Assembly (NCBI RefSeq): GCF_003966565.1
Contig: NZ_AP018718.1
Location: 1,302,001-1,366,000, forward strand
Reading direction: 5' to 3'
Length of the DNA: 64,000 nucleotides
Source: Sulfuricystis multivorans
GTDB taxonomy: Bacteria; Pseudomonadota; Gammaproteobacteria; Burkholderiales; Rhodocyclaceae
The notes beneath the pieces were generated by a model. The model made no database searches. It was not told the DNA's origin and saw only the letters and a list, made by a program, of their open reading frames with translations. Below are positions 13,761 through 28,044 of the stretch, one piece after another; positions within the stretch are counted from its first letter, which is position 1, and each line of letters begins with the position of its first letter. A program made the position numbers and the translations under genes.

Positions 13761-16331
13761 TTACACCTCCCCGACCCGGCGCGCAATATGCGCGAGCGCT
13801 TCCTCGACCTGGTCGATCAGGATCAAGCACAGATCACCTGGCTGCAGTTTGGCAAGTGCCGTGTCGATGGCGAGGAATTCGCCACGGATCTCCTCGATCT
13901 CCTTGGTGCGCGTCGCGCCGACGAGCCCCTTGCGGAGCAGCGCCAGCACCTCGCCGTCGGCGCGGCCGCGCTGACAGGCGTCCTGGTAGAGGATCGCGCC
14001 GTCGAAGGCCTCGCCGAGGATCTCGCTCTGGCGGATGATGTCCTCGTCGCGCCGGTCGCCAGCGCCGCTGATGACGATCCAGCGCCGTTGCGCCGGCAGC
14101 TGTTCTACCGCCTGCACCAGCGCGCGGATCGCGTCCGGGTTGTGACCGTAATCGGCGATCAGCTTCGCGCCGCGGTAGTCGAAGACATTGAAGCGCCCCG
14201 GTGCCGTCCGCGCATCGCTGACGAAGGTGGCCAAACCGCGGCGGATCGTCTCCCAGTCGATTCCCAGCGCCCAGGCGGCACCGACCGCGGCCATCACGTT
14301 CTCGACCTGGAAGCCGATCGTGCCGTTACGGGTGAGTGGTACCGCGGACAGCTCCAAGCGCTCGACTTGTGCCCCTTCTGCGCAGACGATCGCATTGCCC
14401 TCGCGAAAAATGGTCCGTTTGCCCTGCGCGCGGTGCGTCATCATCAGCGGATGATGCGGGTCGGTGGCGAAATAGGTCACCTTGCCCGGACAGGCGCTGG
14501 CCATCTTCGCGACATTCGGGTCGGCGGCATTCAACACCGCCATGCCATTGGGACTGACGTTCTGCACGATCACGCGCTTGACCACGGCAAGCTCTTCGAT
14601 CGTCGTGATGTAGTTCAGCCCCAAATGGTCGCCCATGCCGAGATTGGTCACCACCGCGACGTCGCACCGGTCGAAGCCGAGGCCCTCGCGCAGGATACCG
14701 CCGCGCGCGACCTCGAAAACTGCCGCATCGACTTCCGGATGCAGCAGCACGTTCTTTGCGCTTTTCGGGCCGCTGCAATCACCGCGATCGATGCACCGTC
14801 CGTTGGCAAAGACGCCGTCGGTCAGCGTCATGCCGATGCGCTTGCCGGTCTGGCCAATGAGATGGGCGGTCAGCCGCACCGTGGTCGTCTTGCCATTGGT
14901 GCCGGAGACCGCGACGACCGGAATGCGGCCGTTTTCATTGGCCGGGAACATCATCTCGATGACCGCGCGGCCGACGTCGCGCGGTTTGCCATAAGACGGA
15001 TCGAGGTGCATGCGCAGGCCCGGCGCCGCATTGACCTCGACGATGCCGCCGTTCTGCGCTTCGAGCGGTTGACCGATGTCCTCGCAGATCACATCGATGC
15101 CAGCGATATCCAGCCCGACCATGCGCGCGCAAGCGACGGCGTGCGCCGCGACCTCGGGATGGACGTCGCCGGTCACGTCGGTCGCGGTGCCGCCAGTCGA
15201 CAGGTTCGCGTTGTTGCGTAGCACTGCTCGCACGCCCTTCGGCAGCACCGATTCGGGCGTGAAACCTTGCGCAGCCAGGCGCGCCAGGGCGATGGCATCG
15301 AGGCGGATCTTGGTCAGCGATGTGGCATGTCCCTCGCCGCGGCGTGGATCGCTGTTGACGATATCGACCAGCTCACGTACCGAATGCACGCCATCGCCGA
15401 TCACCGTCGGAGGCTCGCGTCGCGCCGCCGCGACCATCTGGTCGCCAACGACCAGCACGCGGAAGTCGTAGCCGGTGATGAAACGCTCGACCAGCACATG
15501 CGCGCTGATTTCCTGGGCGGCAGCGAAAGCCACCTCGAAATGGGAGCGATTGACGATATTGACCGTCACCCCCTTGCCCTGGTTGCCGTCATAAGGCTTG
15601 GTGACCACGGGTAGCCCGATCTCGAGCGCCGCCTGCCAGCCGGCCTCGACGTCATCGACGACCCGTCCGACCGGCACCGGCACCCCGGCGGCCCTGAGCA
15701 GGCTCTTGGTCAGGTCCTTGTCCTGAGCGATCGATTCGGCGATCGCCGAGGTGCTATCGACTTCGGCCGCCTGGATGCGCCGCTGTTTCGCGCCCCAGCC
15801 GAACTGCACCAGGCTACCGCGGGTCAGCCGCCGCCAAGGGATGTCACGCGCCTGGGCGGCATGGACGATCGCCCCCGTCGAGGGACCCAGCCGTTCATCC
15901 TCGTCGAGCGCGCGTAACTCGGCCACAGCGGCATCGAGATCGAAGGGCGTGTCATCGAGGGCTGCCCGGCAAAGGGTTTCGGCCAGTTCCAGCGCACGGC
16001 GGCCGACCGCCTCTTCGCTGTATTCGACGACCACCTGATAAAGCCCCGCTTCGGTCGTCGGCGCCGTGCAGCTGAAGGACACCGGGCAACCCGCCTGCGC
16101 CTGAAGGTTGAGCGTGGCGAACTGCACCGCGTGGGCAAGCGAAAGCTCGCCGGCATAGCCGATCGGTCGCATCGCGCCGATATGCGGAAAGCGCGCGCGG
16201 ATGCGTGCTTCGAAGCCTGGCAAGCGACTGAATGCCCGTTCGTTTTCCTCGCAACGCACGAGAGCCTGGATCGATGTGTGCCGTGACCAGAGATTGGGGC
16301 CGCGCAAGGCACGAATGCGGAAGATTTCCAT
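13761..16331 (-). CDS. cphA: Cyanophycin synthetase CphA (full-length)
   Basis: 856 residues. It polymerises Asp and Arg into cyanophycin, using ATP at two sites. Order: N-terminal domain (1-about 160), an ATP-grasp domain with KPYDGNQGKGVTVNI (K245), which adds Asp, and a Mur-ligase-like domain with intact P-loop GTNGKTTT (G477-K481-T484), which adds Arg. The C-terminal Mur domain is present (ISGAGDRRDEDI). Its ATG is eight bases after the cphA2-like stop, so the pair is an operon. No cyanophycinase is in the window. This is a storage system for nitrogen, carbon and energy. Confidence 0.95.
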   Translation of the reverse strand: MEIFRIRALRGPNLWSRHTSIQALVRCEENERAFSRLPGFEARIRARFPHIGAMRPIGYAGELSLAHAVQFATLNLQAQAGCPVSFSCTAPTTEAGLYQVVVEYSEEAVGRRALELAETLCRAALDDTPFDLDAAVAELRALDEDERLGPSTGAIVHAAQARDIPWRRLTRGSLVQFGWGAKQRRIQAAEVDSTSAIAESIAQDKDLTKSLLRAAGVPVPVGRVVDDVEAGWQAALEIGLPVVTKPYDGNQGKGVTVNIVNRSHFEVAFAAAQEISAHVLVERFITGYDFRVLVVGDQMVAAARREPPTVIGDGVHSVRELVDIVNSDPRRGEGHATSLTKIRLDAIALARLAAQGFTPESVLPKGVRAVLRNNANLSTGGTATDVTGDVHPEVAAHAVACARMVGLDIAGIDVICEDIGQPLEAQNGGIVEVNAAPGLRMHLDPSYGKPRDVGRAVIEMMFPANENGRIPVVAVSGTNGKTTTVRLTAHLIGQTGKRIGMTLTDGVFANGRCIDRGDCSGPKSAKNVLLHPEVDAAVFEVARGGILREGLGFDRCDVAVVTNLGMGDHLGLNYITTIEELAVVKRVIVQNVSPNGMAVLNAADPNVAKMASACPGKVTYFATDPHHPLMMTHRAQGKRTIFREGNAIVCAEGAQVERLELSAVPLTRNGTIGFQVENVMAAVGAAWALGIDWETIRRGLATFVSDARTAPGRFNVFDYRGAKLIADYGHNPDAIRALVQAVEQLPAQRRWIVISGAGDRRDEDIIRQSEILGEAFDGAILYQDACQRGRADGEVLALLRKGLVGATRTKEIEEIRGEFLAIDTALAKLQPGDLCLILIDQVEEALAHIARRVGEV

Positions 16332-16339
16332 GATGATGA

Positions 16340-18505
16340 TCAGTTTTCGGCAAAGGCGCGATAAGTTTCGATGCCGGCGCGCAGCAGATCAGTGCTCAAG
16401 CCCAACGCCCAGCCGGCGGCCAGCGCGGCCAGCACGGCGACGAGATGTTCTCGGGAATCCTGCAGCAGCGGAATCTGTTCGAGGGCAATGAGCGGCAGCT
16501 CGACCGCCGAGGAACTCAGCACCACTTGGCTGTCGCGCAACACCACGGCTCGCCCGCCCTTGGTGCGATGCTCGGCCACCCGCGGCATCAAAGGGTCGCA
16601 GCTGAAGAAGATCACCTCGCCGTCGCACAGATCCGCCAGGGAGGCCGTCGTCTCGTCGTCGGCATTGAGCACGCCGATGCCGTCAGGCAGCACCACATCG
16701 ATCTGGGTGCGCATCACCTTGAACAGCAACTCGTCGTTGGTGATGCCGTGGTCGGGCATCAGCGCACGGGGGTCGATGGCCGTGACGATGCCCACCTGGC
16801 AGCGATCATAGGCCAGCCCTTCACCAGCGATCGCGGCGGGAGTATTCTCGATGACCGCGGCTTCGAGGCTGCGGTTCATCAAGAGGCGCTGACCGGGCTC
16901 CCAATGCGCGCAGTCGCCCGCCTCGACGCAGCGGTCTTCGAGGAACAATCCTTCGGTGCAGGCCAGCCCGGTGCGCAACCCGCCAAGCTGCAGCAGATGG
17001 GCGATGAGCTGCGCGGTAAGCGTAGATTCACGGCTGCCACTCACACCAATCACTGGAATGCGACCATTCTCGCCCGCCGGAAAGAGGTGTTCGACGATCG
17101 CCTCGCCGACCGGCCGGGGTTTGCCGACCGCGGGCTTCAGATGCATCAACAGGCTGGGGCCGGCATTCACCTCGACGATCGCGCCACCCTGCTCGGCCAG
17201 CGGACGCGAGATGTCCTCCGCCACCAGGTCGATGCCGGCGATGTCCAAGCCCACCACTTTCGCAGCCAGACAAGCGATCTGCGCAGTCTCGGGATGCACT
17301 GCGTCGGTGACGTCGATTGCATAGGTGCCGGTGCGCTGGACGAGCAGTTGCTGGCCTTCTGCCGGAACGTCATCGCCGGAAAAACCTTGGCGCTTCAGGA
17401 TCAGCTGCACGAGGGCATCCTTGTCGAAGTCGATGGTCTCCAAGGGCAATTCCTCGGCATCGCCGCGGCGCGGGTCGGTGTTGATCTGGCTGTCGATCAG
17501 CGCCCTGACCGTCTGGCGGCCATCGCCGGTAATAAAGATGCTCTCGCCTTTGCAGGCTGCGACCAACTTTCCGCCGACGACGAGCAGCCGGTGCTCCTCG
17601 CCGCGTACATACCGCTCGACCATCACCCCGCTACCCTCGCGTTCGGCGACCGGAAACGCCGCACGGACTTCCGCTTCGGTCATCAGTTCGAGGGAAACCC
17701 CGCGACCATGATTGCCGTCATAAGGCTTCACGACCACCGGCACACCGATTTCCTGCGCGGCTTCCCAGGCATCGTCCGGATCATCGACCATGCGGCCCTC
17801 GGGGATCGGCACGCCGCAGGAGGCCAGCAAGGTCTTGGTCAGGTCCTTGTCGCAGGCGATGGATTCGGCGATGGCGCCGGTCAGATCCGTCTCGGCCGTC
17901 CAGATGCGCTTGCTCTTGGTGCCGTAGCCCAGCTGCACGAGGTTGCCTTCGTTGAGGCGGATGTGCGGAATGCGCCGCGGCTTGGCATCGGCCGCATCGA
18001 CGATCGAGGCGGTGCTGGGGCCGAGCAGCAGCCGGTCGGCCAACTCGTGCAGACGCTTGACGGTGACCGCAACATCGAAAGGTTTGTCGTCGATCGCCGC
18101 CATCACCAGATCGCGCGCCGCATAAAGCGCCATGCGGGTGACTTCCGGATGAAAAGCACGCACCACCACCTTGTAGTGCCCGCGCGTGTCCATGCTGCGG
18201 GCACGGCCGAAGCCGCCGGGCATGCCAGCGAGATTCTGCAGCTCGAGTGTCACGTGTTCGAGGATGTGCGCCGGCCAGGTGCCTTCTTCGAGACGGCGGA
18301 TGAAGCCGCCCTCGGTGTCGTAACTGCAACGATGGGACTGTAGCGAAGGCAGCCAGGCGACGAGACGCTCGGTGAAGCCCGGCAGCGTGTTCGACGGGCA
18401 ATCTTCCAGCTCGCCGATGTCGACCCAGGCTTCCAGCACGGGACGGTAGGTCCACAGGTTGGGCCCGCGCAAGTGCACGATTTTCAGGAATTCGATGGAT
18501 TTCAT
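16340..18505 (-). CDS. Truncated second cyanophycin synthetase (CphA2/CphA'-like)
   Basis: 721 residues, homologous to the adjacent CphA in its N-terminal and ATP-grasp domains (KPYDGNHGRGVSLEL near residue 250), with a shortened Mur-like domain. The P-loop position reads GSRESTLT (G490-T497) instead of GTNGKTTT, so the lysine is replaced by serine and the second glycine by glutamate; this site probably cannot use ATP. The C-terminal Mur domain is absent. Cyanobacterial CphA2 has the same losses and polymerises beta-Asp-Arg dipeptides in one ATP-dependent step; proteobacterial CphA' is similar. It is the first gene of the minus-strand operon. Function by analogy. Confidence 0.88.
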   Translation of the reverse strand: MKSIEFLKIVHLRGPNLWTYRPVLEAWVDIGELEDCPSNTLPGFTERLVAWLPSLQSHRCSYDTEGGFIRRLEEGTWPAHILEHVTLELQNLAGMPGGFGRARSMDTRGHYKVVVRAFHPEVTRMALYAARDLVMAAIDDKPFDVAVTVKRLHELADRLLLGPSTASIVDAADAKPRRIPHIRLNEGNLVQLGYGTKSKRIWTAETDLTGAIAESIACDKDLTKTLLASCGVPIPEGRMVDDPDDAWEAAQEIGVPVVVKPYDGNHGRGVSLELMTEAEVRAAFPVAEREGSGVMVERYVRGEEHRLLVVGGKLVAACKGESIFITGDGRQTVRALIDSQINTDPRRGDAEELPLETIDFDKDALVQLILKRQGFSGDDVPAEGQQLLVQRTGTYAIDVTDAVHPETAQIACLAAKVVGLDIAGIDLVAEDISRPLAEQGGAIVEVNAGPSLLMHLKPAVGKPRPVGEAIVEHLFPAGENGRIPVIGVSGSRESTLTAQLIAHLLQLGGLRTGLACTEGLFLEDRCVEAGDCAHWEPGQRLLMNRSLEAAVIENTPAAIAGEGLAYDRCQVGIVTAIDPRALMPDHGITNDELLFKVMRTQIDVVLPDGIGVLNADDETTASLADLCDGEVIFFSCDPLMPRVAEHRTKGGRAVVLRDSQVVLSSSAVELPLIALEQIPLLQDSREHLVAVLAALAAGWALGLSTDLLRAGIETYRAFAEN

Positions 18506-18633
18506 TGTGCTGGGCTGAAACTTTCGGACGAGTAACGCGTTGATCGTGGAAAAGCTGACAGGTGGCCGAGATACTGCCCGGTCGCACCCCGTATCATTCG
18601 CAACCTTCGTCGGCAGTTTGCCTCTTCATCGTG

Positions 18634-20904
18634 ATGGAAAGCGCTACTTTACGCCAGCCAGAATCTCCGCTCCAGTCAGCCCCAGTCATAGCCACGCTCG
18701 AAATCGACCTCGACGAGCAGCTGAATTTCCGCTCCGGACTGATCCAGCTCACCGCGCTCGAGATTCGCGCCGGCGAAAAAGTCTGGCCTTTGTCGGCCGC
18801 GCTGACGCTCACGCATTCCGATCACGGCGGCATCGGCACCCTGGAGCTTGCCGACGGCCAACGCTTGCTCGCGCGCTGGCGCTACACCCTCGCCCGCAAC
18901 CCGGCCGCCCTGAAGTTCGAGCGTGAATTCAACCGCTTACGCGACAGTCTGGCGAGCGGGATGGCGCCGGCTCCCGCCCTCGCCGCGACCTGCCCGATCT
19001 GCAAGGCGCCGATTCCACCCGACGAGGAGGAATGTCCGAACTGCGCCCGCGAGCTCGCCACCCCGCCATCGACCTGGGTTTTGCTGCGGCTGTGGCGCTT
19101 CGCCAAGCCTTACCGGGGCATGCTCTTCGCCGGCTTCCTGCTCACCCTGGCCGCCACCGCCGCGACCCTGGTGCCGCCTTACTTGACCATGCCGTTGATG
19201 GACGACGTGCTGATTCCCTATCAGAACGGTACGCCGATCGACTGGGTCAAGGTCGCCTGGCTGTTGGGCGGCCTGCTTTTCGCCGCCTGCCTTGCCTGGG
19301 GCTTGGGCTGGGCGCGCACCTACATCCTCGCGCTCGTCTCTGAACGAATTGGATCAGATTTGAGAACAACGACTTATGAACATTTGTTAAAGCTATCTCT
19401 CGAATATTTCGGTGGCAAACGCACCGGGGATCTCTTGGCGCGCATCGGCTCGGAAACCGATCGCATCAACGTCTTCCTGTCGCTGCATCTGCTCGATTTC
19501 GCGACCGACGTCTTGATGATCGCGATGACCGCGGTGATCCTGTTCTCGATCGATGCCTGGCTAGCGCTGATCACGCTGATCCCGTTGCCGATCATCATTT
19601 GGCTGATCCACATCGTGCGCGACCGTCTTCGCACCGGCTTCGAGCAGATCGACCGCGTGTGGGCCGAGGTCACCAACGTGCTGGCCGACACGATCCCGGG
19701 CATTCGCGTCGTCAAGGCTTTCGCGCAGGAAGCGCGCGAGGCACAGCGTTTCCGCGACGCCAATCGTCACAACCTCGACGTCAATGACCGGTTGAACCGC
19801 ATCTGGTCGCTGTTCGCGCCGACGGTCGGCTTGCTCACCGAAATCGGCGTGCTGGTCGTCTGGGTGTCGGGCATCTGGCTGATCGCCCATGACCGCATCA
19901 CGGTCGGCGTGCTGACCGCCTTCCTCGCCTACATCTCGCGCTTCTATACCCGGCTGGACGCGATGAGTCGCATCGTCTCGGTGACGCAAAAGGCTGCTGC
20001 CGGGGCCAAGCGCATCTTCGACATCCTCGACCATGTCTCCAGCGTGCCCGATCCGGTGAAGCCGGTGCCGATGCCGCCGGTCACAGGCGCGATCCAAATC
20101 CAAAACGTGCATTTCCGCTATGGCAACCGCGCCATCCTGCGCGGCATCGACCTCGACATCCGCCCCGGCGAGATGATCGGTCTGGTCGGTCATTCCGGCT
20201 CGGGCAAGAGCACGCTGGTGAATCTGATCTGCCGCTTCTACGATGTAACGGAGGGCAGCATTCGCATCGAGGGAGTCGATCTGCGCTCGATTCCGGTGGC
20301 CGAATGGCGCCGCCACATCGGGCTGGTCTTGCAGGAGCCCTTCCTGTTCTTCGGCACCATCGCCGAGAACATCGCCTATGGCAAGCCCGACGCGACGCGC
20401 GAGGAAATCGTCGCCGCGGCGCGCGCCGCCCATGCGCACGAATTCATCCTCCGCCAGCCGTTCGGTTACGACTCGCTGGTCGGCGAGCGCGGGCAGTCGC
20501 TCTCCGGCGGCGAGCGCCAGCGCATCTCGATCGCCAGAGCGCTGTTGATCGATCCGAAGATCCTGATTCTCGACGAGGCGACCTCGGCGGTCGATACCGA
20601 GACCGAATTCGAGATCCAGCAGGCCTTGAACAACCTGATCCGCGGCCGCACGACGATCGCGATCGCCCACCGCCTCTCGACGCTGCGCCGTGCCGACCGG
20701 CTCGTCGTGATGGACCGCGGCAAGATCGTCGAGATCGGCAACCACGACGAGCTGATGGCGAAAGAAGGTCACTACTGGCGGCTCTACATGGCGCAGAGCA
20801 AGCAGCTCGACGAGCCGCCCCCGCTGGGCGAAGCCGACAAGAACGCGCTCCCGCCGCTCGTGTTGCCGGAGCCGAAGGCGCAGGAACGGGAGGTGGTCGC
20901 ATGA
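18634..20904 (+). CDS. Cyanophycin-associated ABC transporter, fused permease/ATPase with zinc ribbon
   Basis: 756 residues. An unusual N-terminal domain of about 115 residues precedes a four-cysteine zinc ribbon (C120, C123, C134, C137). A six-helix exporter domain follows (about 150-460). The ATPase has Walker A GHSGSGKST (K525), signature LSGGE (623-627) and Walker B LILDEATSAVD (D647, E648). It is divergent from the cyanophycin synthetases and overlaps the DUF1854 gene by ATGA. Databases carry an ABC/DUF1854 pair described as cyanophycin metabolism-associated, which matches. The cargo is unknown. A GTG at 18562 would add 24 residues; neither start has a strong ribosome site. Confidence 0.88.
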   Translation: MESATLRQPESPLQSAPVIATLEIDLDEQLNFRSGLIQLTALEIRAGEKVWPLSAALTLTHSDHGGIGTLELADGQRLLARWRYTLARNPAALKFEREFNRLRDSLASGMAPAPALAATCPICKAPIPPDEEECPNCARELATPPSTWVLLRLWRFAKPYRGMLFAGFLLTLAATAATLVPPYLTMPLMDDVLIPYQNGTPIDWVKVAWLLGGLLFAACLAWGLGWARTYILALVSERIGSDLRTTTYEHLLKLSLEYFGGKRTGDLLARIGSETDRINVFLSLHLLDFATDVLMIAMTAVILFSIDAWLALITLIPLPIIIWLIHIVRDRLRTGFEQIDRVWAEVTNVLADTIPGIRVVKAFAQEAREAQRFRDANRHNLDVNDRLNRIWSLFAPTVGLLTEIGVLVVWVSGIWLIAHDRITVGVLTAFLAYISRFYTRLDAMSRIVSVTQKAAAGAKRIFDILDHVSSVPDPVKPVPMPPVTGAIQIQNVHFRYGNRAILRGIDLDIRPGEMIGLVGHSGSGKSTLVNLICRFYDVTEGSIRIEGVDLRSIPVAEWRRHIGLVLQEPFLFFGTIAENIAYGKPDATREEIVAAARAAHAHEFILRQPFGYDSLVGERGQSLSGGERQRISIARALLIDPKILILDEATSAVDTETEFEIQQALNNLIRGRTTIAIAHRLSTLRRADRLVVMDRGKIVEIGNHDELMAKEGHYWRLYMAQSKQLDEPPPLGEADKNALPPLVLPEPKAQEREVVA

Positions 20905-21383
20905 GATCGCCCACTTTCACCTTGAGCCGCAACCCGTTCGGCAAACTGGTGTTCACCGGCCCCGATGGCGTGGCGCACGAGGGTGTGACGCCGGTGCGCG
21001 CTTTTGCGCTTTCCTCACCGGAGGAAGGCATTGCGCTGCTCTCTGCCGAAGGCAAGGAGCTCGTCTGGATCGACCGACTTGCCGACTTGCCGACGCCGTT
21101 GCGCGGCTTGATCGAAGAAGAATTCGCCCAACGCGAATTCATGCCGGTGATTCAGCGCATCGTCCGGGTGTCGAGCTTCGCCACCCCATCGACCTGGCGG
21201 GTCGACACCGACCGGGGAAGCACGGAACTGATTCTCAAGAGTGAGGACGACATCCGCCGCCTGCGCGGCAGCATCCACCCCAACGGACTCCTGATCGCCG
21301 ACAGCAACGGCATCCACTACCTGATCCCCGACCGAAATAGGCTCGATGCGGCGAGCCGGAAGATTCTGAAACGGTTTCTCTGA
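20901..21383 (+). CDS. DUF1854 protein, cyanophycin-associated
   Basis: 160 residues, soluble, no signal peptide or membrane segment. It has WIDRLADLP and, in its C-terminal half, STWRVDTDRGSTELILKSED and DSNGIHYLIPDRNRLDAASR, as in the DUF1854 family. The ATG overlaps the stop of the ABC transporter gene (ATGA), so the two are cotranslated. DUF1854 proteins are known to co-occur with cyanophycin synthetase genes, but no biochemical role is established. A partner of the transporter's unusual N-terminal domain is one possibility, by inference only. Confidence 0.85.
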   Translation: MRSPTFTLSRNPFGKLVFTGPDGVAHEGVTPVRAFALSSPEEGIALLSAEGKELVWIDRLADLPTPLRGLIEEEFAQREFMPVIQRIVRVSSFATPSTWRVDTDRGSTELILKSEDDIRRLRGSIHPNGLLIADSNGIHYLIPDRNRLDAASRKILKRFL

Positions 21384-21481: not shown

Positions 21482-23977
21482 ATGGAAGCTGCTGCGCCCA
21501 TCCGCGTCCTCTACGTCGAGGACGATCCGTTCGACCGCGAGCTGGTGCTCGATGTGCTCGAACATGCCGAGACGCCCTTCGCGCTGACGACGGTTGGCGA
21601 TCGCCGCGAATTCGAAACCGCGTTGCAGACGGGCAGCTTCGATTGCGTGCTGACGGATTATGAGATTCTCGGCTACTCTGGCCTAGAGGTCTTCGATGCA
21701 GTGCAGGCCGTGCAGCCGAACCTGCCGGTGGTGATCCTGACTGGCACGGGTTCGGAAGAACTCGCCGTCGCGGCGATGAAACGCGGCGCCGCCGATTACA
21801 TCATCAAGACACCCGAGCACATCCGTCGTCTGCCGCTGTCGCTGAATCGCGTCGTCGAGCAGGCCGCATGCGCGCTACGGTTGAAACAGCAACAAGCCGA
21901 AGTCGATCTGGCCGCGAAGATTTTCGCTGCGAGCAGCGACGGGCTGATCATCACCGACGCGGCCAGAAAGATCCTCGCCGTCAATCCGGCTTTCTGCGCG
22001 CTCAGCGGCTATCGGGCCGACGAGTTGATCGGCCGCGAGACCGACGTACTCAACGCCGGACCGAAAGACGACGCCTTGGTCGCGGCAATCTGGGGAAGTG
22101 TCGCCCGACAGGGGATCTGGCAAGGCGAAATCCGGCCGCGGCGCAAGGATGGCACGCGTGGCCGCGCCTGGCTCACCCTGTCGGCGATCACGGACCCCGA
22201 GGGTGCGGTGAGCCATTATGTCATTCAGCTCGTCGATCTCACCGAGCGCAAGCAGTTCGAGGAACACCTGCGTTACGTGCTACAGCACGACGCACTGACC
22301 GACCTGCCGAATCTCGGCCTGCTGACCGACCACCTCGAGCAGGCACTCAGTGACGCCGCGCGGCAAGGGCGCAGCGTAGCGCTCATGACCCTCAATTTGA
22401 CGCGCTTTCGCGCGGTCAATGAACACTATGGCCGCAGCGTCGGCGATCGCGCGTTGATCGAAGTAGCTCGTCGTCTTTCCGACCTGATACGCGCCAGCGA
22501 CACGGTGGCGCGCAGTGGCGCCGACGAATTCGACATCGTGCTCACCAACCTCGACGAGGAAGATGATGCGATCCTGCTCGCCCAGCGCATCCTCGATCGG
22601 ATCGCCGAACCATTGGATATCGACGGTCACCGGCTGGCGCTCGATGCCTGCATCGGCATCGCGCTCTATCCGAAGGATGCCCAGGATGTCGAAGGACTGT
22701 TCAAGAGCGCCGATAGCGCGCTCGATCATGCCCGCAAAGCCGGGAAACACGGCTTCCATTTCTTCGACCGGCAGATGAATGCAGAAGCTCAATTGCGGCT
22801 GCGGCTCGAAGCTGACTTGCGGGAGGCCGTCGCGCAGGAAGCGCTGGAGATTCGCTACCAGCCACAGGTCGATCTGCACAGCGGCCGCATCTGCGGCTAC
22901 GAAGCGCTGTTGCGCTGGCAGCATCCGCAGCTCGGCGCGATCTCACCGACCCAGTTCGTCCCGTTGGCCGAGGAGATCGGCCTGATCGACCGTATCGGCA
23001 CCTGGGTCCTGCGCCAAGCCTGCCAGCAGAACAAGATTTGGTTGGATGCCGGCGCACCGCTGCTGCCGGTGGCGGTGAATGTCTCGCCCCACCAGTTCCG
23101 GCAGGAAGATCTGGCCGAGATCGTCAGTCGGACGCTGAGCGAGAGCGGCTTGCCGGGCGCCGGCCTGGAGTTGGAGATCACCGAATCGTCGATGATCGAG
23201 CACCCGACGCAGGTCGCCGACGTGATCGGCCGAGTCAAGGCACTGGGCGTGAAGCTGGCGCTCGACGATTTCGGCACCGGTTATTCGTCGCTGTCGTATC
23301 TGTCGAGCCTGCCGTTCGACAAGATCAAGATCGACCAGAGCTTCATCCGCGACGTGATCACCAACCCCGTCAACGCCGCGATCGTCAGCGCGACGATCGC
23401 GATGGGGCGCAGTCTTGGTATGACTGTGCTGGCCGAGGGTGTCGAGAACGAGGCACAGTTGATGTTCCTGCGCAGCCGGCGATGCGAGGCGATGCAGGGC
23501 TGGCTATTCAGCAAGGACATCGCCGCGGATCAGCTCGGCATGCTGCTGAAGGAAGGCGCAACGCTGAAAGTCGGCACAGCAGAAACGGCAGCAGAGGAGA
23601 CCCTGCTGCTGCTCGACGACGAGCCGAACATCCTCAACGCGCTGCGCCGCCTGCTGCGGCGGGAGGGCTATCGCATCCTCGCGACCACCTCGCCGCAGGA
23701 AGCCTTCGCACTGCTGGCGCAACATCGTGTCCAGGTGATCGTCTCCGACCAGCGCATGCCCGAGATGAGCGGCACCGAATTCCTCTCGCGCGTCCGGCAA
23801 ATCTATCCCGATACAGTGCGCATCGTGCTCTCCGGCTACACCGACCTGCAATCGATCACCGATGCGATCAACCGCGGAGCGATCTATCGCTTCCTCGTCA
23901 AACCCTGGGACGACGAAGAGCTGCGCCAGCAGATCCGCGAGGCATTCCGCGTCGCGCATGGGCTGAAACATGGCTGA
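21482..23977 (+). CDS. REC-PAS-GGDEF-EAL-REC c-di-GMP signalling protein
   Basis: 831 residues with five domains. The first receiver has acceptor D59 and lysine K109. A PAS domain follows (about 140-255). The GGDEF domain is degenerate: the signature is G346-A-D-E-F350, so cyclase activity is doubtful. The EAL domain has E474-A-L and DDFGTGYSS (D595, D596) and looks catalytically complete. The C-terminal receiver has D756 and K807 and resembles the receiver of the HD-GYP protein two genes downstream. It is probably a phosphodiesterase with two phosphorylation inputs. It is first in a four-gene run; its last eight bases overlap the open frame of the next gene. Confidence 0.9.
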   Translation: MEAAAPIRVLYVEDDPFDRELVLDVLEHAETPFALTTVGDRREFETALQTGSFDCVLTDYEILGYSGLEVFDAVQAVQPNLPVVILTGTGSEELAVAAMKRGAADYIIKTPEHIRRLPLSLNRVVEQAACALRLKQQQAEVDLAAKIFAASSDGLIITDAARKILAVNPAFCALSGYRADELIGRETDVLNAGPKDDALVAAIWGSVARQGIWQGEIRPRRKDGTRGRAWLTLSAITDPEGAVSHYVIQLVDLTERKQFEEHLRYVLQHDALTDLPNLGLLTDHLEQALSDAARQGRSVALMTLNLTRFRAVNEHYGRSVGDRALIEVARRLSDLIRASDTVARSGADEFDIVLTNLDEEDDAILLAQRILDRIAEPLDIDGHRLALDACIGIALYPKDAQDVEGLFKSADSALDHARKAGKHGFHFFDRQMNAEAQLRLRLEADLREAVAQEALEIRYQPQVDLHSGRICGYEALLRWQHPQLGAISPTQFVPLAEEIGLIDRIGTWVLRQACQQNKIWLDAGAPLLPVAVNVSPHQFRQEDLAEIVSRTLSESGLPGAGLELEITESSMIEHPTQVADVIGRVKALGVKLALDDFGTGYSSLSYLSSLPFDKIKIDQSFIRDVITNPVNAAIVSATIAMGRSLGMTVLAEGVENEAQLMFLRSRRCEAMQGWLFSKDIAADQLGMLLKEGATLKVGTAETAAEETLLLLDDEPNILNALRRLLRREGYRILATTSPQEAFALLAQHRVQVIVSDQRMPEMSGTEFLSRVRQIYPDTVRIVLSGYTDLQSITDAINRGAIYRFLVKPWDDEELRQQIREAFRVAHGLKHG

Positions 23978-24023
23978 ACCACCATGGGCGCATCCGATGG
24001 CCTCTGATGACTTTGGAGGGGAT

Positions 24024-25382
24024 ATGGAAGAAGACAAGATCCAGATCGGCTGCGAATCGATAATCAACGGCCTTGCCGTACCGACGTTCATCATCGATCT
24101 CCGGCACAGGCTCGTTTGTTGGAACCATGCCTGCGAGAAAATCACCGGCAAGTCGGCAGTCGAGATGGTCGGCACAGACAATCATCGACGGATCCTTTAT
24201 GACCAGGAACGGCCGACGATGGCCGATCTGATCGTCGATGGTGCCGACGCCAAGACACTTCGTCAGCACTACGGTGAAAAGCGCCTGACCCGTTCTTCCC
24301 TGCTCGATGGGGCCTATGAGGCAGAGGATTATTTTGCGCACTTGGGCGAGGATGGTCTATGGCTTTACTTTACCGCTGCGCCGCTGCGTGATGCGCAGGG
24401 TCGCATGCTCGGCGCAATAGAAACTCTTCAGGACGTTTCCGATCGCCATCTCGCCGAGCAAACGCTGCTGAATTATCAGAAGAATCTCGAGAAAATCATC
24501 CAGCTACACACTGCTCAGCTGGCCGAGACCCAGCAGCAACTGGTGCACGCTGAAAAAATGGCCTCGATCGGCCAACTCGCCGCCGGCGTCGCCCACGAGC
24601 TCAACAACCCGATCGGTTTCGTCAATAGCAACCTCAATACCCTCGAAACCTATCTCGCGGATCTCTTCGCGATCGCCGACGCTTATGCGCAGGCCGAGCT
24701 CGCCTACGGGATGGAGTCGCCGCCGTTCGAGCGTGCCCGCCAGCTCAAGGAGGAAAAGGATTACGACTTCCTGCGCAACGACATCCTGGCGCTGTTGCAC
24801 GAATCGAAAGAGGGGCTCTCGCGCGTCGCGCGGATCGTGCGCGATTTGAAGGATTTTTCTCATGCCGGCAACACTGCGATGCAGTGGGCCGACCTGCATG
24901 CCGGGCTCGAATCGACGCTCAACATCGTCTGGAACGAGCTGAAATACAAATGCACCGTCACCAAGCGTTATGGCGAACTGCCTCCGGTCTGGTGCGACAT
25001 TTCGCAGCTCAACCAGGTGTTCATGAACCTGCTCGTCAATGCTGGCCACGCGATCGCCGAGAAGGGCGAGATCACGATCGCCACCGGCCGCGAAGGCGAC
25101 AAGGTGTTCGTCGCGATCAGCGACACCGGCAGCGGCATCGCGCCGGAGAACCTCAAACGCATTTTCGATCCCTTCTTCACCACCAAGCCGGTCGGCAAGG
25201 GCACGGGTCTCGGCCTGTCGCTCGCCTATGGCATCGTGCAGAAACACCGGGGCAACATCGAGGTAAAAAGCGAGCTGGGCAAGGGCAGCACCTTCACCGT
25301 CTGGTTGCCGATCGAGCCGCCGACGCAGACCGCCGAGACGCAGACTGCCGTCTTGCCAGCGCCGACTTTGCAACAGCCATGA
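24024..25382 (+). CDS. PAS-domain sensor histidine kinase
   Basis: 452 residues. An N-terminal PAS domain (about 8-140) is followed by a short coiled coil and a HisKA/HATPase core: phospho-acceptor H191 in GVAHELNNPIGF, N-box MNLLVNAGHAI, SDTGSGI and GTGLGLSLAYG. There are no membrane segments, so it is a cytoplasmic sensor. The frame is open from an ATG at 23970 that overlaps the upstream gene, but the ATG at 24024 has GGAGG close before it and is preferred. The insert between H- and N-boxes is long. It overlaps the HD-GYP gene by ATGA, making that response regulator its likely partner. Confidence 0.88.
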   Translation: MEEDKIQIGCESIINGLAVPTFIIDLRHRLVCWNHACEKITGKSAVEMVGTDNHRRILYDQERPTMADLIVDGADAKTLRQHYGEKRLTRSSLLDGAYEAEDYFAHLGEDGLWLYFTAAPLRDAQGRMLGAIETLQDVSDRHLAEQTLLNYQKNLEKIIQLHTAQLAETQQQLVHAEKMASIGQLAAGVAHELNNPIGFVNSNLNTLETYLADLFAIADAYAQAELAYGMESPPFERARQLKEEKDYDFLRNDILALLHESKEGLSRVARIVRDLKDFSHAGNTAMQWADLHAGLESTLNIVWNELKYKCTVTKRYGELPPVWCDISQLNQVFMNLLVNAGHAIAEKGEITIATGREGDKVFVAISDTGSGIAPENLKRIFDPFFTTKPVGKGTGLGLSLAYGIVQKHRGNIEVKSELGKGSTFTVWLPIEPPTQTAETQTAVLPAPTLQQP

Positions 25383-26689
25383 ACGCATCCCAGACACCTC
25401 CGGCGCCAGCGCGCATCCTGTGCGTCGATGACGAACCATCGATTCTCGCCGCGTTGAAGCGCGTCTTCCGTCCTCACGGCTATACCGTGCTGACGGCCGG
25501 CTCCGGTCAGGAAGCGCTCGAGCTGCTCGCCAAGGAGCCGGTCGATTTGGTGATCAGTGACATGCGCATGCCACAAATGGATGGTGCGCAGCTTCTCGAA
25601 CAGGTCTTCCAGCGCTGGCCCGAGACGAAGCGCATCTTGCTCACCGGCTACGCCGATGCCAATGCCACGATCGCGGCGATCAATCTGGGCCATATCTGGC
25701 GCTATGTCGCCAAGCCTTGGAACGATGCCGAACTGGTGAGCGCCGTCGAGCAGGCGCTGGCCCACAGCCGGTTGGAGCGCGAGAACGCCGCGCTCGTCGC
25801 GCTCACAAAGCGGCAGAACGAAGAGTTGCGCCGGCTCAATGCCGGCCTGGAAGAAAAAGTCGCGGCGCGCACCGCGGAATTGCAACAAATGCTCGGCATG
25901 GTGGAAACAGCCCATGCCGAGCTGAAAAAAGGCTTCATGACCACCGTCAAGGTGCTCTCCAGCCTGTTCGAGCTGCGTGGCGGCAAACTCGCCGGCCACT
26001 CGCGCCGCGTCGCCGAGACGGCGCGCCAGCTCGTCCAGGTGCTCGCGCTCGACGAAGCGGCCGCCCAGGACGTGTTGCTCGCAGCGCTGCTGCACGACAT
26101 CGGCAAGATCGGCCTGCCCGACCATCTGCTCGACAGGCCGTTCATTACGCTGCTGGCCGAAGAGCGTGCCCAGGTCATGACGCATCCGCAGCGTGGCGAG
26201 CTGGTATTGAAGGCGGTCGAACAGCTCAAGAATGCGGCCGTGCTGGTGCGCCACCATCACGAATGCTTCGACGGTAGCGGCTATCCGGATCATCTGGTCG
26301 GTCTGGCCATCCCTCTGGGCGCGCGCATTCTCGCCGTGGCCAACGATTTCGATGCCCTGCAGCTGGGCACGCTGGTCAGCCGGCCGTTGAAACCAGCCGA
26401 GGCGCGCTCCTATATCTTCGAAAACCGTGGCAAGCGCTATGACCCGCAGGTCGTCGATGCCTTCATGGCCAAGGTCGCCGATCAGATCCCCGAGGAAGTG
26501 CAGGAGCTGCCGATGCGTCCCGGCACCTTGCGTCCCGGCATGGTGCTGACGCGCGATCTCATGCATCCCGACGGCTACCTGCTGCTGGCCAAGGGCCAAG
26601 CAGTCGATGCGCAGGTGATCCAGCAGCTGCTGAAGATCGAATCGCTGGAAGGCCACCGATTGACACTCTATGTCCGGCCGGAGAAGTGA
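25379..26689 (+). CDS. Response regulator with HD-GYP c-di-GMP phosphodiesterase domain (RpfG class)
   Basis: 436 residues. The receiver has D61 and the KPW motif typical of RpfG-class regulators. A coiled coil (about 130-185) leads to an HD-GYP domain with HDIGK (H239, D240), HHH near 293 and DGSGYP (298-303); the key metal and signature residues are present, so hydrolysis of c-di-GMP to GMP is expected. A C-terminal extension (about 375-436) repeats a motif seen after HD-GYP domains in other regulators. The ATG overlaps the upstream kinase stop. The downstream hemerythrin-kinase begins two bases after its stop. Confidence 0.93.
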   Translation: MNASQTPPAPARILCVDDEPSILAALKRVFRPHGYTVLTAGSGQEALELLAKEPVDLVISDMRMPQMDGAQLLEQVFQRWPETKRILLTGYADANATIAAINLGHIWRYVAKPWNDAELVSAVEQALAHSRLERENAALVALTKRQNEELRRLNAGLEEKVAARTAELQQMLGMVETAHAELKKGFMTTVKVLSSLFELRGGKLAGHSRRVAETARQLVQVLALDEAAAQDVLLAALLHDIGKIGLPDHLLDRPFITLLAEERAQVMTHPQRGELVLKAVEQLKNAAVLVRHHHECFDGSGYPDHLVGLAIPLGARILAVANDFDALQLGTLVSRPLKPAEARSYIFENRGKRYDPQVVDAFMAKVADQIPEEVQELPMRPGTLRPGMVLTRDLMHPDGYLLLAKGQAVDAQVIQQLLKIESLEGHRLTLYVRPEK

Positions 26690-26691
26690 CG

Positions 26692-28044
26692 ATGGAAGCC
26701 TTCGTCTGGAGCGAGCGTTTCGAAACCGGTTTCGCCAGCGTCGATGCGCAGCACCGCCATCTCGTCGCCCTCGTCAATCGGGTCGGCGACATGCTCCTCG
26801 ATGCGAATCCGGGCTCATCCGGGATCGAGGAAGTGTTCCGCGAGCTTTCGACCTACGCAGCGACACACTTCCGCGGGGAAGAACGCCTGATGCAGGAGAA
26901 CGGCGTCGATGCGCGCCATCTCGAGCATCACCGCAAGTCGCACCGTGATTTCGTCGAACAGGTCAAGGAGATGTGGAACCAGCGCAAATTGATGTCGGCG
27001 CCGGCGGAAACCCTGCATGGCTTCCTCGTCGCCTGGCTGAGTTTCCACATCCTCGGCGAGGATCAGCAGATGGCACGCGAAATCATGCGCATCCGCCAAG
27101 GCAAGAGCCCGGCCGAAGCCCATGAGCTCGAACACACGCGCGGCGAACGCTCGACGACGGCGCTGATCACCGCGCTGAAAAACCTCTATGCGGTACTGCT
27201 GCGCCTGAACCGCGACATGGCGCAGATCAATGCCCGTCTCGAAGCCGAGGTCGCCGAACGCACGAAAGAGCTACTACAATCGGAAAAGCTCGCTTCGATC
27301 GGCCAACTCGCCGCCGGGGTGGCACACGAGATCAACAATCCGATTGGTTTCGTCACGTCCAATCTCGGTACGTTGGGTCGCTATGTCGATCAGCTGCTGC
27401 GGCTGGCCGACCTAGGCGCCGCGACGCCGCAAGGCGAGGCGATCAGCCAGGAAATCGATCTGGCCTACCTGAAAACCGATGTCGCCGACCTGCTGCGTGA
27501 AACGCGCGCGGGACTCGAACGAGTGCAAAAGATCGTCGTCAATCTCAAGGATTTCTCGCGCGTCGATCAGGCGCAATGGCAGGAAGCCGACCTGCTTGCC
27601 GGCCTCGAGAGCACGCTTGCCGTCGCCGCCCACGAATTGAAGTACAAGGCGGACATCAAGCGCGATCTCGCGCCACTGCCGCCGGTGCGTTGCATGCCGG
27701 CGCAGATCAACCAGGTGTTCCTGAACCTGCTGGTCAACGCGGCACAGGCAATCGCCGGTCACGGCACGATCACATTGAAAAGCGGACGCGCCGGCGACCG
27801 TGTCTGGATCGAGATCACCGATACCGGTTGCGGGATGGATGCAGCCACCCAGCGCCGCCTGTTCGAGCCGTTTTTCACCACCAAGCCCGTCGGCAGCGGC
27901 ACCGGGCTGGGACTGTCACTGAGCTGGGACATCATCAACAAACACGGCGGCAGCATCGACGTCGACAGCACGCCGGGCAAAGGCACGACGTTCCGCATCT
28001 GGCTGCCGATTTCTGGACCCAGCGGAGGACACGAGGCCGGTTAG
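26692..28044 (+). CDS. Bacteriohemerythrin-histidine kinase fusion
   Basis: 450 residues. The N-terminal 135 residues are a hemerythrin domain with diiron ligands in the expected order: H21 in DAQHRHL, H in THFRGEE with the glutamate, the paired H in HHRKSH, and H and D in FHILGED. A coiled coil (about 165-205) joins it to a HisKA/HATPase core with H212 in GVAHEINNPIGF, NLLVNAAQAI, DTGCGM and GTGLGLSLS. The kinase core is closely similar to that of the PAS kinase two genes upstream, suggesting duplication with exchange of sensor domain. Hemerythrins bind O2, so an oxygen or redox input is likely. An in-frame GTG lies six bases upstream. Confidence 0.92.
   Translation: MEAFVWSERFETGFASVDAQHRHLVALVNRVGDMLLDANPGSSGIEEVFRELSTYAATHFRGEERLMQENGVDARHLEHHRKSHRDFVEQVKEMWNQRKLMSAPAETLHGFLVAWLSFHILGEDQQMAREIMRIRQGKSPAEAHELEHTRGERSTTALITALKNLYAVLLRLNRDMAQINARLEAEVAERTKELLQSEKLASIGQLAAGVAHEINNPIGFVTSNLGTLGRYVDQLLRLADLGAATPQGEAISQEIDLAYLKTDVADLLRETRAGLERVQKIVVNLKDFSRVDQAQWQEADLLAGLESTLAVAAHELKYKADIKRDLAPLPPVRCMPAQINQVFLNLLVNAAQAIAGHGTITLKSGRAGDRVWIEITDTGCGMDAATQRRLFEPFFTTKPVGSGTGLGLSLSWDIINKHGGSIDVDSTPGKGTTFRIWLPISGPSGGHEAG

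Follow-up and report, generated by a model that had tools for sequence, protein, structure and literature searches.

What circuit is encoded by four consecutive signalling genes of Sulfuricystis multivorans (family Rhodocyclaceae), in which two histidine kinases stand beside two response regulators with domains for the turnover of cyclic diguanosine monophosphate (c-di-GMP)? The genes occupy positions 21482 to 28044 of the 64,000-nucleotide stretch that was analysed (the window; NZ_AP018718.1, positions 1,302,001 to 1,366,000), and all features located below lie on its + strand unless stated otherwise. Gene 1 (21482..23977, 831 aa) encodes a REC-PAS-GGDEF-EAL-REC protein with two receiver (REC) domains, gene 2 (24024..25382, 452 aa) a PAS histidine kinase, gene 3 (25379..26689, 436 aa) a REC-HD-GYP response regulator and gene 4 (26692..28044, 450 aa) a hemerythrin histidine kinase. 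Judged by sequence, the locus is a hemerythrin-input version of the NosK/NosR type of system with an added EAL-REC effector. The original prediction is supported in part, namely as a compact c-di-GMP unit with several kinases, several receivers and a hemerythrin input.

The arrangement that we consider probable is a branched two-component circuit for c-di-GMP with a NosR-family regulator at its centre, in which two kinases act on two receivers of the same class. Two soluble kinases with NosK-type cores, one with a PAS sensor and the other with an N-terminal diiron hemerythrin domain sensing O2 or redox state, would phosphorylate or dephosphorylate gene 3 at its receiver and gene 1 at its C-terminal receiver. 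Hydrolysis of c-di-GMP probably falls to the EAL domain, and the dead GGDEF domain, with its retained I-site, would serve as a nucleotide-binding regulatory domain, if it acts at all. The HD-GYP domain of gene 3 would either hydrolyse c-di-GMP or regulate the EAL protein, as HnoD of Shewanella oneidensis does HnoB, and the N-terminal receiver of gene 1 would take a separate input from elsewhere. With both kinases most likely acting on the NosR-type receiver and on the C-terminal one of the EAL protein, the O2/redox signal of the hemerythrin kinase would converge on the NosR pathway, which in relatives uses nitric oxide (NO) via NosP and NosK.

The profile match of gene 3 identifies it as a NosR-family response regulator. 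Its score against the NosR-family model NCBIfam NF053512 is 555.8 bits (curated cut-off 400 bits), with residues 13–432 spanning positions 1–422 of the 422-position profile; of 114 genomes sampled across the class, 11 have a member over the cut-off. In the NO system NosP/NosK/NosR, NosR is the response regulator on which the NO-responsive NosP/NosK pair acts, and phosphotransfer from NosK to NosR has been demonstrated in Burkholderia pseudomallei (PMC12570481). The nosRPK system of that organism likewise has a NosR-family REC-HD-GYP in a kinase-regulator operon, and its NosK resembles gene 4 in the type of kinase core and in the HEINN motif (PMC12570481). The S. multivorans locus differs in having two kinases, each fused to its own sensor (a PAS or a hemerythrin domain), and an extra EAL-REC effector, and no FIST (PF08495) gene is present in the genome from which the window was taken. 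Furthermore, B. pseudomallei NosR is degenerate, reading HG-GTP, whereas the HD and GYP motifs of gene 3 are intact (PMC12570481). No link between a hemerythrin kinase and a regulator of the NosR family was found in a search of open-licence papers.

The association of these genes is conserved among relatives, in which domains were called with small hidden Markov models built for this analysis and some loci end at contig ends. In the complete genome of a congener (G019), the four genes occur in identical order and in the same place, beside glgX; the survey proposed with the original prediction thus finds a gene order that is not unique to one genome. In three further congeners (G080, G262 and G212) a kinase, the REC-HD-GYP regulator and the hemerythrin kinase remain together, and the sensors of the first kinase vary among congeners (PAS, PAS-PAS, PAS-GAF-PAS and others). 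Across the family, a REC-HD-GYP gene lies no more than two genes away on the same strand for 24 of 39 hemerythrin kinases versus none of 13 hemerythrin-GGDEF genes (Fisher p ∼6e-5; this value and all locus counts given here are uncorrected for phylogeny), and this association exceeds chance. It is very improbable that the four genes are a chance or shared-strand cluster of unrelated signalling genes with no common circuit: the genome is indeed rich in such domains (22 GGDEF and 8 HD_5 over cut-off) and the cyanophycin and glycogen genes on the flanks are unrelated, but the identical order in the congener, the recurrent pairing in the family and the overlapping or 2-nt junctions all argue against it.

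Hemerythrin itself was rejected as the cause of the HD-GYP adjacency. Kinases with the same core and other sensors have a REC-HD-GYP gene within two genes in 15 of 20 loci, equally often (15/20 versus 24/39, p = 0.39), and the stable unit is therefore the kinase core with the NosR-type regulator, for which hemerythrin is one of several inputs. G212, a sister species within the genus, has a row of four genes (L140:6261-11366) that encode, in this order, a NosP-like FIST protein, a sensorless kinase, a regulator of the NosR family and a hemerythrin kinase, which suggests that NO and O2/redox inputs may meet on one regulator. A sensor swap was rejected as the origin of this sensorless kinase; its core belongs to a separate clade, which indicates gene replacement instead.

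Which kinase would act on which receiver? The kinase cores of genes 2 and 4, described in the original prediction as near-identical, are 52–54% identical, although both read F, S, N and T at the mapped specificity positions of DHp helix 1 (offsets +8, +11, +12 and +15 from the phospho-His, mapped after HK853/RR468). The phospho-accepting residues are His191 in gene 2 (24594-24596) and His212 in gene 4 (27325-27327). On the receiver side, the C-terminal REC of gene 1 (23606..23938, by Pfam; phospho-acceptor Asp756) and the REC of gene 3 (phospho-acceptor Asp61) are 46% identical and have most mapped helix-1 residues in common, and by these comparisons are one receiver class. The N-terminal REC of gene 1 (phospho-acceptor Asp59, 21656..21658) is another class, being only 17–21% identical to either and diverging much faster, which argues against the earlier view that three receivers could be fed by the two kinases.

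Between congeners the domains differ in their conservation. The C-terminal REC of gene 1 (95%), the HD-GYP domain (93%, with a ratio of non-synonymous to synonymous substitution rates, dN/dS, of 0.06) and the kinase core of gene 2 (90%) are conserved, and the hemerythrin domain (74%), the N-terminal REC of gene 1 (66%) and the PAS domain of gene 2 (26%) are less so. These values are consistent with two kinases that have exchangeable sensors and act on two receivers, the N-terminal receiver taking an input of its own; they do not prove phosphotransfer. An arrangement of insulated pairs, with the hemerythrin kinase acting only on REC-HD-GYP and the PAS kinase only on the EAL protein, would be in keeping with the position of a REC-HD-GYP gene directly next to 17 of the 39 hemerythrin kinases on the same strand, including loci with few other kinases near (L037 and L050), and with the separation of hemerythrin-kinase cores and of the PAS/GAF kinases that occupy the place of gene 2 into two clades. 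We nevertheless consider it unlikely, given the identical specificity residues of the two kinases, the single receiver class and the fact that a PAS/GAF kinase directly precedes REC-HD-GYP in G019, G080 and G262.

What would such a circuit do to c-di-GMP? The product of gene 1 is likely an EAL phosphodiesterase with a dead cyclase. The catalytic set of its EAL domain (motif at 22901..22909) is complete, with all eight residues (E, N, E, D, D, K, E and Q; ENEDDKEQ) present. The cyclase, already read as inactive in the original prediction, is very probably dead: in place of GG(D/E)EF and the metal-binding Asp that mark an active enzyme, it has the degenerate motif GADEF (22517..22531) and, as seen by alignment with GGDEF proteins, Asn305 (22394..22396). 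The I-site motif RxxD is intact (RASD, 22490..22501). A strictly intact cyclase site is found in 8 of 27 proteins ending in GGDEF-EAL-REC compared with 17 of 27 GGDEF-only proteins, a contrast that is understated because most of the remaining GGDEF-only proteins read GGEEL or similar. The genome of the window has 21 GGDEF domains besides that of gene 1. In two EAL-REC relatives (L035:2745-5291 and L038:11165-13399) Val replaces the Glu of the AEGVE motif, and the EAL enzyme itself may therefore be silent in some genomes.

The HD-GYP domain of gene 3 is less easily read. It retains the HD, the K, the other His residues (H, HD, H, HH), the Glu and GYP, and of the complete metal-ligand set only the last Asp is replaced, by Asn322, which is followed by an acidic residue (Asn322-Asp323, 26342..26347). 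In an alignment with PmGH and PA4781, both have Asp where gene 3 has Asn322; in HD domains this Asp is the last metal ligand. In the family, 39 of 42 REC-HD-GYP proteins have Asn at this position, always followed by Asp or Glu, and the HD, K, His and GYP residues are invariant (42 of 42). Outside the family, REC-HD-GYP partners are more variable, and they are degenerate in Burkholderia and its relatives. In the NosR-type REC-HD-GYP proteins across L031-L208 the last-ligand Asp is replaced, mostly by Asn, with an acidic residue next in nearly all, amounting to a one-position shift of the acidic residue.

Asn322 does not prove that gene 3 is inactive. Three HD-GYP proteins of Vibrio cholerae are each short of one expected residue, and one is active while two are inactive (PMC4212101); because of these cases the activity of gene 3 cannot be read from its sequence. 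The altered residue, together with the often degenerate relatives outside the family, does imply that the domain may regulate rather than hydrolyse. Of the two phosphodiesterase activities originally proposed, that of EAL is likely from its intact site and that of HD-GYP is in doubt. The direction of any response is inferred and, with Asp changed to Asn at a metal-ligand position, neither the activity of gene 3 nor a net fall in c-di-GMP is proven; the claim that the whole set lowers c-di-GMP is unsupported as written. A switch that purely lowers c-di-GMP, with active EAL and HD-GYP phosphodiesterases and both kinases acting on all three receivers, thus seems rather doubtful to us. The intact EAL site, the dead cyclase and the invariant HD-GYP residues under strong purifying selection would favour it, but it has to contend with the Asn, with the degenerate relatives and with an N-terminal receiver that differs in class from the other two and shows sensor-like divergence. 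A more speculative reading, which we hold to be rather unlikely, is a hub of exchangeable sensors, in which interchangeable kinases responding to NO, O2/redox or other cues would act on one NosR regulator with an altered metal site, which would gate a partner EAL enzyme and not itself hydrolyse c-di-GMP.

Several observations weigh against the branched circuit that we favour. The F-S-N-T residues occur in the majority of the family's kinases with this core, so that kinases from outside the locus could also act on these receivers and the pairing is unproven. No REC-HD-GYP gene was found within four same-strand genes of 15 of the 39 hemerythrin kinases, some of these loci being truncated at the end of a contig. 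Nor does the gene 1 protein always lie beside the kinase/REC-HD-GYP pair, and an EAL-REC protein lies within four genes of 14 of the 39. Finally, in the authors' model for B. pseudomallei, phosphorylated NosR may raise c-di-GMP (PMC12570481).

The hemerythrin domain of gene 4 (26731..27075) has a complete H/HxxxE/HxxxH/HxxxxD diiron ligand set, with all seven predicted iron ligands present (H21, H59, E63, H80, H84, H119 and D124; five His, one Glu and one Asp) and invariant among 17 homologues in the family, from which iron binding is predicted. Its nearest solved relative is DcrH-Hr (E 2.7e-10). Characterised hemerythrin sensors work in cis, in methyl-accepting chemotaxis proteins, diguanylate cyclases, HD-GYP proteins and an ATPase, and the bacterial cyclase and HD-GYP sensors among them are O2-driven redox switches with no stable oxy form (PMC9388753). 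By analogy, gene 4 is more likely to sense through an O2-driven redox switch than through a stable O2 complex, and the O2-binding hemerythrin of the original prediction is to be reworded to this extent.

A many-to-many unit with EAL and HD-GYP regulators is not new in principle, given the precedent of HnoK/HnoS. The HnoK/HnoS-HnoB/HnoC/HnoD network of S. oneidensis similarly has two kinases, three receivers and EAL and HD-GYP regulators in a branched c-di-GMP network, but there a separate H-NOX protein is the NO sensor, the place of the third receiver is taken by a DNA-binding regulator, and HnoD is degenerate and inhibits HnoB (PMC6335343). Of the known systems, this network is the closest analogue. 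In Bhr-DGC (V. cholerae) and Bhr-HD-GYP (Ferrovum) a hemerythrin domain also controls c-di-GMP turnover; there sensor and enzyme form one protein (PMC9388753), whereas the hemerythrin domain of gene 4 is joined to a kinase expected to act via receivers. RpfC/RpfG of Xanthomonas also combines a histidine kinase with a REC-HD-GYP regulator, and differs in sensing the diffusible signal factor (DSF), in having one kinase and in the proven phosphodiesterase domain of RpfG (PMC4212101). In NosP/NahK/NarR of Legionella pneumophila a kinase likewise acts on a receiver protein that has both a GGDEF and an EAL domain (PMC8846402). The NarR cyclase is active (PMC8846402), whereas gene 1 has lost its cyclase residues and its matching receiver is C-terminal.

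The four open reading frames and every domain named in the original prediction were confirmed, far over Pfam cut-offs (two Response_reg, PAS, GGDEF and EAL in gene 1; PAS and HATPase_c in gene 2; Response_reg and HD_5 in gene 3; Hemerythrin, HisKA and HATPase_c, together with bacteriohemerythrin models, in gene 4). The sole exception is HisKA of the PAS kinase, which falls slightly under its cut-off, HATPase_c of the same protein matching at 9e-26. The tight spacing first described holds for genes 2 and 3 (4-nt overlap, 25379-25382) and for genes 3 and 4 (2-nt gap, given ATG 26692), but probably not for genes 1 and 2. Gene 2 most likely starts at ATG 24024, which is preceded by GGAGG and leaves a 46-nt gap; the alternative ATG 23970 would give an 8-nt overlap. 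Upstream of the four genes lie two cyanophycin-synthetase-like genes (Pfam Cyanophycin_syn) with cyanophycin-associated genes, the synthetase-like pair on the − strand beside an ATP-binding cassette (ABC) transporter (NF052233) and a DUF1854 protein (NF052234) on the + strand (window 13761-21383); downstream are glgX and a 4-alpha-glucanotransferase gene. A functional tie to these flanking genes is not supported, the flanks being common only to the congener G019 among the compared loci. Promoter and terminator scans of the locus were uninformative, close to shuffled expectation. Among related clusters, tandem two-receiver proteins (∼280–360 aa) recur (L034:11179-12216, L138:5291-6343, L035:5203-6153 and others), possibly as phosphate sinks or relays. 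An HDOD-like gene (∼280–330 aa) is often found directly upstream of the other-sensor kinases (L178, L181, L182, L186, L188, L189 and L196), two of these proteins matching only an HDIG domain.

The conserved Asn variant of the NosR-type regulators bears on the role of the last HD metal ligand. If correct, the conserved association of a hemerythrin kinase with a NosR-family regulator would represent a non-heme O2/redox input to two-component control of c-di-GMP. It would also bring O2 and NO, whose levels shift together as cells turn hypoxic and denitrify, to bear on one output, and the gene row of the sister species G212 makes this convergence directly testable with four proteins.

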